A stretch of 64,000 nucleotides of DNA from Bradyrhizobium sp. 195 (GTDB taxonomy: Bacteria > Pseudomonadota > Alphaproteobacteria > Rhizobiales > Xanthobacteraceae), in NCBI RefSeq assembly GCF_023101665.1, contig NZ_CP082161.1, positions 6,076,001 through 6,140,000 on the forward strand. The letters run 5' to 3'. The translations under genes and the position numbers were made by a program. This document shows positions 21,789-25,335 of the stretch, piece after piece (the stretch's first letter is position 1; every line of letters begins with the position of its first letter). The notes under the pieces are model-generated. The model saw nothing but the letters and a program-made list of their open reading frames with translations, did not search any database and was not told where the DNA came from.

Positions 21789-22364
21789 TCATCTGCGCCG
21801 CTCTGCCCGTTGTGTCCCCGTTTCCGTCGCAAAGCCGTAGACCAGCGCCAGCCGGTCCAGGCATTCGCGAAAACGCCGCGCGAAATAATCGTTCCAGCGC
21901 TGCGTCCGGACGGCGCGACGCTCCCCGATCTGATCCATGGTCAGGCCCAGTATCAGCACGTCGTGCACCAGCGCGGCACCGTCGGTGCCGAGTTCGCGCT
22001 CGACCCGATTCAGCCGCAACACCGCCTGGCGCTGGCTCTCGGTGACGGGCTCACGTGTGCGCGCGCCATCGACATATTCCCGGGTCGGATCCATCGCCTG
22101 AGGGCCCCGCTCCGCCCTCTCCCAATCGTTCTGGAAGGCACGCCCGCCGCGGTATTGCGCCTCGTCGATCTGGTGGTGTGCCTGCAGCCGGCCGAGGGGA
22201 TCGCGACGGATCGACCGGATAGCCACGATCTTCTCACCGGAATCGAGCGCCAGCGGATTGTCGACCTCGACCTCCGCCACTTCGGCATTGAACGGCAACT
22301 CGCGGGACCGCCGGTCGTAGATCTGCGTCATTTTGTAGGACTTATTGCGTCGGACACGAGCCAC
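21789..22364 (-). CDS. DUF6456-like putative DNA-interacting protein
   Basis: 191 residues. A GTG start is preferred: AAGGAG is eight bases upstream and the protein opens VARVRRNKSYKMTQIYDRRS. The core pattern is an AFQNDWERAERGPQAMDPT segment, then a helical domain (LVHDVLILGLTMDQIGERRAV, then FARRFRECLDRLALVYG). This resembles DUF6456 proteins of Rhizobiales, in which a helix-turn-helix-like part detects DNA or a regulator (inference). It is followed, 46 bases upstream on the same strand, by a GcrA-like gene. Confidence 0.75.
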   Translation of the reverse strand: MARVRRNKSYKMTQIYDRRSRELPFNAEVAEVEVDNPLALDSGEKIVAIRSIRRDPLGRLQAHHQIDEAQYRGGRAFQNDWERAERGPQAMDPTREYVDGARTREPVTESQRQAVLRLNRVERELGTDGAALVHDVLILGLTMDQIGERRAVRTQRWNDYFARRFRECLDRLALVYGFATETGTQRAERRR

Positions 22365-22410: not shown

Positions 22411-22941
22411 TCAGGCAACCGAGACCAGCTTGAGCACGACCGGACCGGGCGCGCGGGCGGACGCAGCACGGGAGCGGTGCGCCAGGCGCGCATGCGGCGC
22501 GCAATAGCTGCAGCCCGGCTGGCGCGGATGGCCACAGAAGGTGATCGCCTCCCCGTCCTTTTCGCCGCCATAGGGATAGCGGCAGTCGGCCGGCTCGAGT
22601 TCAACCAGTTGGATCAGGCGCGGCTGAATCCCGACGCAGCGCAACTTCACCGGCACCGCAGGCTTCATTGCGGACTTCGGCGGCACATTCAGGTTCGGCA
22701 ACACCGCGCGGCGCGGCGAAACCGGAGCTTCACCAGGCAAATACGGCGCGATCGACGGGCTCGCGATCCATTCCGGTATCACGAGCCGGAGCCGCTTGGC
22801 GCGGCCGATCACCGCATTGCGCGTGTAAGCCGTTCCAAACCTTGCGTTAATCTGTCGTCCGATCTCCGCATAAGACATGCCCTTGCGAAAATAGTCGCGA
22901 AGCGCGTCGGAATGCTCCGACGGCCAATGGCCCGGTTCCAT
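22411..22941 (-). CDS. GcrA-family cell-cycle regulator-like protein
   Basis: 176 residues. The N-terminal 50 residues match the GcrA DNA-binding domain (HWPSEHSDALRDYFRKGMSY, then AEIGRQINARF, then TRNAVIGRAKRLRL). The C-terminus has the GcrA-like CRYPYGG...FCGHP...CSYCAPHARLAH pattern, which in GcrA contacts sigma-70. GcrA activates promoters carrying methylated GANTC sites. The linker and C-terminus differ from canonical GcrA, so this is probably a paralogue. The start is set by AGGA eight bases before MEPGHWP. Confidence 0.88.
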   Translation of the reverse strand: MEPGHWPSEHSDALRDYFRKGMSYAEIGRQINARFGTAYTRNAVIGRAKRLRLVIPEWIASPSIAPYLPGEAPVSPRRAVLPNLNVPPKSAMKPAVPVKLRCVGIQPRLIQLVELEPADCRYPYGGEKDGEAITFCGHPRQPGCSYCAPHARLAHRSRAASARAPGPVVLKLVSVA

Positions 22942-22996: not shown

Positions 22997-23010
22997 ATTC
23001 CGGTATTCCG
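22997..23010. promoter_or_regulatory. ATTCCG direct repeat, possible third repressor site
   Basis: ATTCCG occurs at 22997-23002 and 23005-23010, between the divergent GcrA-like and S24 repressor genes. It shares its half-site with the two dyads at 23056 and 23766. Confidence 0.4.
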
Positions 23011-23045
23011 AAGATCAAGTCAAGCGATAATTCTGATATTCATAA

Positions 23046-23074
23046 TTGCAATAATTCCGAATTTCGGATTACAA
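23046..23074 (+). promoter_or_regulatory. Candidate repressor promoter with overlapping operator
   Basis: TTGCAA (23046-23051), 17 bases, TTACAA (23069-23074). The spacer contains the dyad TCCGAA-T-TTCGGA (23056-23068). The same ATTCCG-N5-CGGA arrangement recurs in the promoter at 23757-23785. Consistent with autoregulation by the S24 repressor. Confidence 0.6.
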
Positions 23075-23107
23075 GAGGCAAGTCGGTGCGCAATCGAGGG
23101 AATCACC

Positions 23108-23716
23108 ATGTTGGACGTTGCAATGATCGAGCGGGGCCTGGAGAAGACGGGCAAGAGCAAGGGCGGCCTGGCGGCGGCCATGGGCGTGCGGCCCGGCGCG
23201 GTCTCGGAGATCCTCGGCGGCGAACGCCTGGTGAAGGCCTCGGAAATCATTCCGATCATGGAATATCTCGAGCTCAATCTCGCGCCGATCATGGGCCGCG
23301 TCGGCGCCGGCGCCGTGATCGAGCCGGATTATGAGCAGGTTCCGCCGGAAGGGCTCGGCGACATCGCGCTGCCCTTCCCGATCATGGAAGAGACCGTCGC
23401 ATTCGAGATCGTGGGCGATTCGATGCTGCCCAAATACGAAAGCGGCGACGTGATCGTGGTCTACAAGGACCAGCGCCATCCGCTGTCGAGCTTCTACGGC
23501 GAAGAGGCCGTGGTCCGGCTCAAGACCGGCGAACGCTATTTGAAGACCATCGAGCGGGGGAAAAGCCCGTCCGTCGTCAATCTCAACAGCTTCAATGCCA
23601 AGCCGATCGTCGGCGTGAAGCTGGAGTGGGTCGGAGAGATCTGCCTGTCGATGCCCAAAGGGCAGCTCGAGCGGCTGCGCGCGAAATCGGCGCGCCCCCG
23701 CAAGAAGGGGAAGTGA
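23108..23716 (+). CDS. CI/LexA-like repressor: HTH plus S24 peptidase domain
   Basis: 202 residues. The N-terminal Xre-type helix-turn-helix (LEKTGKSKGGLAAAM, then GVRPGAVSEIL) is followed by a LexA/CI C-terminal domain with the catalytic Ser-105 in GDSM and the likely general base Lys-146 in ERYLKTI. A possible self-cleavage Ala-Gly bond is at 67-68 (VGAGA). All parts needed for RecA-stimulated self-cleavage appear present, though this is inferred. It is the first gene of a regulatory block and has matching dyads in its own promoter and in that of the next gene. Confidence 0.93.
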   Translation: MLDVAMIERGLEKTGKSKGGLAAAMGVRPGAVSEILGGERLVKASEIIPIMEYLELNLAPIMGRVGAGAVIEPDYEQVPPEGLGDIALPFPIMEETVAFEIVGDSMLPKYESGDVIVVYKDQRHPLSSFYGEEAVVRLKTGERYLKTIERGKSPSVVNLNSFNAKPIVGVKLEWVGEICLSMPKGQLERLRAKSARPRKKGK

Positions 23717-23740
23717 GGGCCTTGGCCGGCTGATTTCGAT

Positions 23741-23750
23741 TTTCTAGAAA
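23741..23750. promoter_or_regulatory. Perfect palindrome TTTCTAGAAA
   Basis: A 10-bp perfect palindrome just upstream of the -35 element of the promoter at 23757-23785. It could be a second binding site for a dimeric regulator. Confidence 0.35.
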
Positions 23751-23756
23751 TCAGAC

Positions 23757-23785
23757 TTGACTTGATTCCGTTTTTCGGAAATACT
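23757..23785 (+). promoter_or_regulatory. Candidate promoter with overlapping operator
   Basis: TTGACT (23757-23762), 17 bases, AATACT (23780-23785). The spacer contains TTCCG-TTTTT-CGGAA (23766-23780), matching the dyad before the S24 repressor gene at 13 of 15 positions over ATTCCG-N5-CGGA. Likely repressed by the same protein. Confidence 0.65.
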
Positions 23786-23824: not shown

Positions 23825-24100
23825 ATGCAGTATTTCGTCGTGATGATCGACTATGGACGGCGGGGCCGCGAGGCGGTCGTCGATCCTGAGATCACGAGGC
23901 GTGAGGTCATCTCCCGCATCGCCTCGGGTGAATATCGGAATGTCTCGTTCATCCACGAAATTGCAGAGAATTCGGTCGAGGACGTCACCGAGGCCATCCT
24001 CACCGAGGCCGCCCTGCCCCAGGTCCCGCCGGAGGATGTCGACCTCCAGGCATCCCGCCTCGATCACGCCCGCGATCTGCGCAAGCACGAACGGACGTGA
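23825..24100 (+). CDS. Hypothetical protein (91 aa) under S24-repressor control
   Basis: 91 residues starting MQYFVVMIDYGRRGREAVVD. A short alpha/beta core (EITRREVISRIASGEYRNVS, then FIHEIAENSVEDVTEAILTEA) and a charged tail. It has no signal peptide. The strong promoter with an overlapping dyad 40 bases upstream is the most informative thing about it. I do not recognise the family; similar proteins occur in other Bradyrhizobium genomes. Confidence 0.75.
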   Translation: MQYFVVMIDYGRRGREAVVDPEITRREVISRIASGEYRNVSFIHEIAENSVEDVTEAILTEAALPQVPPEDVDLQASRLDHARDLRKHERT

Positions 24101-25113: not shown

Positions 25114-25335
25114 GGGCGTTGCTCCCTTATCGTTGGGTGAGATCCGAAGAGCCGGATTGGCCGCAGAAATAGGCATTCAGTCCGCCCGTTACAGTACGGA
25201 CCCGTAACAAGAATGTCACAGCGAGCGACAAACCTCCGCCGTTCCATCTCCGTTCGAAAGAGTTGATGACGCGCCCGGAGCAACCGGCAGTAGCTTCGGC
25301 GCGGGTTTGGTGGTCGCCTGCGTAGGAGAGCCGAG

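Follow-up and report, generated by a model that had tools for sequence, protein, structure and literature searches.

A probable lambda-type immunity region kept without a prophage across Bradyrhizobium

The immunity region of phage lambda has the order OL-PL-cI-OR-PR, and host programmes under the control of repressors derived from phages are already known. GcrA proteins are sigma-70 cofactors, and the alphaproteobacterial LexA box is GTTC-N7-GTTC. In Caulobacter, RogA is a LexA-like S24 repressor of gafYZ, and the available portion of the report describes it as lacking the catalytic residues (PMC9632790); excerpts of two other papers present GafZ as an antiterminator (PMC11150451) and GafA homologues as proteins annotated DUF6456 (PMC9638019). 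In Pseudomonas, according to an extract of the original study, AlpR autocleaves on DNA damage and releases the antiterminator AlpA (PMC7969949). Finally, in one Bradyrhizobium strain, the phage reads were spread evenly over the host genome, a pattern that the accessible text calls reminiscent of gene transfer agents (GTAs) (PMC10127595).

The window analyzed here (the whole stretch of Bradyrhizobium sp. 195 DNA, 64 kb in length) has an S24 repressor gene with a predicted operator cluster on either side, one at a divergent promoter and one at a downstream promoter. On sequence grounds, the interval that separates S24 from a divergent gcrA-like gene holds three candidate operators, and one or two precede a 91-codon gene, referred to here as p91. 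We consider it likely that this locus is a lambda-type region for immunity and early control, either a remnant of a temperate phage or captured from one, which has been kept across Bradyrhizobium without a prophage. As in lambda, a CI-type repressor with cleavage residues sits between operator clusters, with three sites on the divergent side and up to two downstream, and the divergent operon holds a DUF6456-like gene, from a family found in a Q-like position in phages. Unlike in lambda, no surrounding phage was seen and no Cro-like gene was found at the window locus, a GcrA-like gene lies beside the repressor, and the operator sequence is different. No published description of this switch was found in the literature searched.

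The repressor and its predicted operators

The S24 gene (23108 to 23716, plus strand) encodes a 202-residue protein with an HTH and a LexA/CI-type self-cleavage domain; the match to PF00717 (Peptidase_S24; E value, 3.8e-11) exceeds its cut-off, and those to HTH_31 and HTH_3 fall below theirs. A preliminary description of this DNA had proposed an intact self-cleavage center, and this proposal is borne out: Ala67-Gly68, Ser105, and Lys146 are in place and show no change in any of the 58 loci from the genus, in a genome of another genus (G218), or in an alignment of 12 sequences that includes viral repressors. RecA-stimulated self-cleavage, with damage-dependent release of the switch, is predicted. 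Searches of the PDB gave no match at an E value of 0.01 with the S24 sequence alone and none at 0.001 with its alignment; when the threshold for the alignment was relaxed to 5, there were 36 weak matches, mostly to HTH proteins, among them LexA (3k2z, 0.0085) and the lambda repressor (3bdn, 1.2). One member of the genus carries a second S24 match (G080:C85:28667; 54% over residues 59 to 185), which covers the cleavage domain and not the HTH.

Both of the ATTCCG-N5-CGGA dyads described previously are exact, at 23054 to 23068 and 23765 to 23779, and the two 15-mers are equal at 13 of 15 positions. The motif by itself is not convincing; it is the cross-genome comparison that convinces. With up to two mismatches allowed, the pattern is not enriched in the 64-kb window (82 matches, versus 97.6 in shuffles). 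Across the 9.1 Mb of the own genome, the exact 15-mer is not rare: it occurs 29 times (5 times for the reversed pattern), near the approximately 21 occurrences expected from a hand estimate based on base composition. We used a position weight matrix (PWM), built from 18 clade-B p91 operators with dinucleotide shuffles as background, on 58 genus loci, comprising clade A (36 loci at 89% identity or more) and clade B (22 loci below that value). The 99th percentile of the shuffles was exceeded upstream of S24 in 36/36 clade-A and 22/22 clade-B loci and upstream of p91 in 36/36 clade-A loci. The single best score of all shuffles was exceeded in 34 of the 36 clade-A p91 regions, in 18 of the 22 clade-B S24 upstream regions, and in none of the 36 clade-A S24 regions.

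Although the PWM was trained on the clade to which the window does not belong, its four top scores in the window all fall at the locus (23766, 23031, 23055, and 22998), the weakest of them being 14.5, versus 11.7 for the best score elsewhere in the window. Predicted operator O1, TTCCGGTATTCCGAA (22998 to 23012, plus strand; PWM score, 14.5), faces the gcrA-like operon and is conserved in clade A; it is a candidate for the third site that had been suspected in this direction. Predicted operator O2, TTCTGATATTCATAA (23031 to 23045, plus strand), is likewise conserved in clade A; it is absent from the preliminary description, and its score (18.6) is like that of the p91 operator (18.7). Predicted operator O3, TTCCGAATTTCGGAT (23055 to 23069, plus strand; 15.7), corresponds to the first of the two dyads. 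The predicted p91 operator, TTCCGTTTTTCGGAA (23766 to 23780), is contained in the operator-promoter TTGACT-N17-AATACT (23757 to 23785, plus strand), and 24 bases from it lies a weak and doubtful second site, TTCTAGAAATCAGAC (23742 to 23756, plus strand; 8.4). Three sites are found upstream of S24 in 36/36 clade-A loci and in 15/22 clade-B loci, the other 7 of which have two; three are also found in all of the best 80 of 176 named relatives, that is, in the closest ones. Before p91, two or more sites at a score of 8 are present in 29/36 clade-A and 19/22 clade-B loci. The earlier view that S24 controls itself and p91 agrees with the matching sites upstream of both genes; it was, however, incomplete, since the good sites number four, with a fifth in doubt, and the gcrA-like and DUF6456-like genes are probably under S24 control as well.

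A -35/-10 pair with a 17-base spacer had been drawn before both genes. For p91 this arrangement holds, with TTGACT at 23757 to 23762, AATACT at 23780 to 23785, and the dyad inside the spacer. The S24 pair, TTGCAA/TTACAA (23046 to 23074), is literally present but not conserved, and the S24 promoter as drawn appears weakly supported because its hexamers are exact in only 9/36 clade-A and 0/22 clade-B loci. The divergent gcrA promoter has a -35-like hexamer, TTGACT (23018 to 23023, minus strand), which as GTCAAG on the plus strand is conserved in 36/36 clade-A and 21/22 clade-B loci; no good -10 was seen near it.

The exact composite of motif and promoter is nearly confined to the locus. The pattern TTGA-N5-TTCYGNWWWTCNGAA-N2-A has 73 exact matches in 72 of 117 genus genomes, compared with 0 for the reversed control, and by-eye comparison with S24 coordinates placed 72 of these 73 directly downstream of the S24 gene (exception, G078:C42). 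The own genome has no further exact match outside the locus. The exact composite is absent from 45 of the 117 genomes, and a looser form is present in 48 of the 58 loci. Because the matches fall almost only at the locus, direct control by S24 looks local. Several single operator-like sites elsewhere score 13 to 17, and up to 17.6, and a minor regulon beyond the locus may exist; a large regulon was set aside, the exact 15-mer count being near expectation.

Relaxed off-locus matches whose surroundings were read, at 24 loci and three more places, fell within coding frames, in a REP-like repeat, in a tRNA gene, or at a few unassigned intergenic sites. One operator-like sequence, TTCCGAATTTCGGTA, recurs at G000:C1 positions 686961, 3810194, 5258468, 5477508, 5788563, and 6870095, with a variant at 5392491. 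The copies examined (all except 6870095) sit in a REP-like repeat (TTGCCCGACGGGCAAAACA...), and the likeness to the operator is probably a coincidence.

Conservation of the four-gene locus

Of the 146 genus genomes sampled, 144 have an S24 match at an E value of 0.001 or better. The match is strong in 141 of the 146 (135 of the 137 of high quality), including G076 and G077, where the gene is split between frames, and is weak in G016, G033, and G100. The order of the four genes (DUF6456-like, gcrA-like, S24, and p91) is the same in 20/20 genus loci of 19.5 kb; nine of these have no detectable window flank genes, and the flank genes recur in several relatives. A scan of named contigs gave 176 relatives, of which the best 80 were kept, 79 titled Bradyrhizobium and one Frankia; within these 80, the order is found in 78/78 loci uncut by a contig end, three of them with an incomplete p91 match. 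The Frankia record (L327; JAUEPE010000040.1, titled Frankia sp. RB7) holds the locus at 96% S24 identity and is probably mislabelled or contaminated. Among 187 genomes from other genera of the family, the best S24 match was 53%, in G218, and the next was 46%, in G189, over the S24 domain only.

All four genes are under purifying selection. A Nei-Gojobori script applied to clade A (6 sequences, 15 pairs) and clade B (9 sequences, 36 pairs) gave dN/dS values of approximately 0.03 and 0.10, respectively, for S24, approximately 0.12 and 0.13 for p91, 0.12 in both clades for the DUF6456-like gene, and approximately 0.29 and 0.30 for the gcrA-like gene; two flanking genes gave 0.04 and 0.05 in clade A. 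Damaged copies were nevertheless encountered: p91 is split in G063, the GcrA-like match of G091 contains a stop, and 1 of 21 gcrA-like frames is short.

The GcrA-like protein (22411 to 22941, minus strand; likely start at 22941, with an upstream alternative at 22998) contains the Pfam GcrA domain (PF07750; E value, 2.3e-47) and falls below the cut-off of the NCBIfam sig70cofacGcrA equivalog (41/280 bits), so it is not a GcrA equivalog. The 180-residue DUF6456-like protein (21789 to 22331, minus strand) scores 21.2 bits against PF20057, below the curated cut-off of 26.3, and thus is not a canonical DUF6456/GafZ protein. Profile-profile comparison of an alignment from 29 of 30 loci (one was dropped by the frame filter) nonetheless gave 95.9%, with an E value of 5.7e-9 over 117 columns, compared with 0.3% for the S24 control and 0.6% for the reversed alignment; judged by these profiles, the window protein is distantly homologous to the canonical domain, that of GafZ/GafA. 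A second DUF6456 match in the own genome (5854785) was judged spurious, the opposite long frame being read as a dehydrogenase.

Relatives in phages and viral contigs

The p91 gene (23825 to 24100, plus strand) encodes a 91-residue protein whose relatives include early genes of Bradyrhizobium phages OP596614 and OP596615, where ERF comes two genes after them and YqaJ and NinB follow. Relatives were also found in 16 IMG/VR loci, one of which (L159) may be bacterial, and the C-terminal DHARDLRKHE motif is retained in some of the viral proteins. A PDB search with p91 gave three weak matches (best, 0.0024), which we do not believe. Further p91 homologues occur at L147 (G102) and L145 (G209), in surroundings that appear phage-like by eye.

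DUF6456-like matches were obtained in four viral records, OP596614, L160, L191, and L192. In all three of those checked, the gene lies upstream of a terminase, which is annotated as such in OP596614, matches Terminase_3 in L191, and was identified in L192 by reading of frames. GcrA-like matches occur in viral contigs L231, L173, and L174 and, weakly, in L164. Relatives of p91 accompany those of DUF6456 in OP596614 and L160 and a GcrA-like gene in L173 and L174; among the viral records searched, none was a phage that combines the four genes. Of the stretches retrieved by their p91 or DUF6456 matches, only one also has this repressor, L159 (IMGVR_UViG_3300020015_000012), perhaps a bacterial contig, which carries S24, p91, GcrA-like, and Cro-like genes and has one end that looks ABC-transporter-like by eye.

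Exact operator patterns were found in 14 IMG/VR stretches, 8 of which (including L159) have an S24 or Cro-like match and 6 of which have neither. The repressor protein is the same in three of these contigs, L236, L241, and L242 (the last of which has terminase matches in PHROGs), and it is 71% identical to that of the window over residues 1 to 191 and 67% identical over the whole alignment. Adjoining the repressor gene is a divergent small gene labelled Cro-like on the strength of its position and appearance, the copies having given no match in scans with Pfam and PHROGs. By tblastn, this gene has matches in L159, G218, and viral contigs and none, at 1e-4, at 24 genus loci that include the window locus. 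Three plus two operator-like sites were found in L231, L232, L239, the L236/L241/L242 group, and L159, and two plus two were found in L234. The OR-like spacings are 32 to 33 and 24 to 25 in the viral contigs and 33 and 24 in the window, and the OL-like spacing is 32 to 33 in the viral contigs and 24 in the window, where the second site is the weak, doubtful one. The records of the L236 group, L231, L232, L234, and L239, which may be fragments, lack p91. In G218, a 53% repressor is accompanied by Cro-like, DnaA_C, replication, and DUF6456-like genes (L132, about 6.8 to 10.2 kb), and a different, 122-codon gene occupies the position of p91.

These findings bear on whether S24 is simply a chromosomal LexA paralogue of the host that regulates itself and p91, the phage likeness having arisen because phages borrowed this switch. 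Like LexA, the protein combines an HTH with an S24 domain, and some sources name members "repressor LexA"; S24 is core in the genus and under purifying selection, and several viral repressors share the S24 domain but have a dissimilar HTH, all of which would suit a host origin. Unlike LexA, it is associated with another operator sequence and with local sites. Recurrence of the three-plus-two layout in viral contigs, the presence of the three partner families in phage early regions, and the low identities in the 187 genomes from other genera of the family argue the other way, and we regard such a switch as rather improbable. LexA control of the locus was also considered and rejected: GTTC-N7-GTTC is missing there, and the nearest copy is at 25241.

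A different possibility is that the repressor is kept mainly as resident immunity that silences incoming phages sharing its operators. Such operators do occur, similarly arranged, in viral contigs; however, the repressor alone would suffice for this purpose, yet p91 and the gcrA-like and DUF6456-like genes are kept under purifying selection, and L242, the one operator-bearing contig tried, had no near match in a phage collection. This explanation seems to us quite improbable. The preferred reading remains a lambda-type region of phage derivation, although transfer may have run from host to phage rather than by capture from phage to host. No structural, packaging, or integration genes were noticed beside the locus when the ORFs of 15 to 33 kb were inspected by eye, so it does not look like an intact prophage. 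The statement that the switch is not obviously part of a prophage misses the phage-immunity layout and the phage-borne gene families.

A predicted switch and its comparison with gene transfer agents

The sequences show the genes and their catalytic residues, the array of operators, the overlap of operator and promoter at p91, the relatives in phages, and the conservation of the locus; binding, cleavage, induction, targets, and a benefit of the switch are inferred. By analogy with lambda, the S24 protein would act as a CI-type repressor at the three OR-like operators that separate its gene from the gcrA-like operon on the divergent side, and also at the one or two OL/PL-like operators over the p91 promoter. 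Bound repressor would keep p91 and gcrA-DUF6456 off and would regulate its own gene. DNA damage, through RecA filaments, or another signal would then lead to self-cleavage at Ala67-Gly68, and both operons would fire. Given the sigma-70 cofactor role of GcrA and the antiterminator role ascribed to GafZ in the excerpted literature, the released GcrA-like and DUF6456 (GafZ-family, antiterminator-like) proteins could act in trans. The AlpR-AlpA system, as far as it is described in the extract available, resembles this scheme in that a cleavable repressor leads to release of an antiterminator, an analogy of description and not of sequence; it differs in that no lysis genes were identified at the window locus.

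What stands out is that a viral decision module has for the most part stayed together across a genus, with its repressor, its array of operators, and its early genes, but without the virus. A viral decision circuit thus seems to have been turned into a bacterial regulator in most Bradyrhizobium genomes examined, and the locus permits one to ask what a lysogeny switch does after the phage is lost. It also offers a local, testable circuit in which a GcrA-like cofactor is paired with a GafZ-family antiterminator in Bradyrhizobium. It can be envisioned that a lambda-type lysogeny switch, nearly complete, has become a core cellular damage switch that fires these two proteins in trans and perhaps drives a gene-transfer or phage-exploiting programme of an unrecognised kind, but we think this unlikely.

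The link through DUF6456 raises the question of a GTA master switch, with S24 in the role of RogA and the GcrA-like and DUF6456 proteins in those of GafY and GafZ. The Caulobacter system, within the limits of the excerpts cited above, shares with the window a LexA-like S24 repressor and an operon with a DUF6456/GafZ-family gene; the distant homology of the window DUF6456 protein to the canonical domain and the even read coverage excerpted from the Bradyrhizobium phage study also accord with such a role. The window S24 protein differs from the partially available description of RogA (PMC9632790) in having its catalytic residues intact, and a GcrA-like gene stands in place of GafY. Moreover, the RcGTA marker PF13547 is absent from 4/4 genus genomes (the own genome and three others) and present in 61 of 100 family genomes, and DUF6456 scores above its cut-off in 0/4 genus versus 71/100 family genomes. 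RcGTA control is accordingly disfavoured, only an unrecognised, non-RcGTA agent would fit, and we consider a GTA master switch highly unlikely. Elsewhere in the own genome, a 231-codon frame (L002; G000:C1:540148) encodes an S24-domain protein with Ala in place of the catalytic Ser (GDALLP); this protein appears, by reading, to be RogA-like, even though that genome gave no match to the RcGTA marker.
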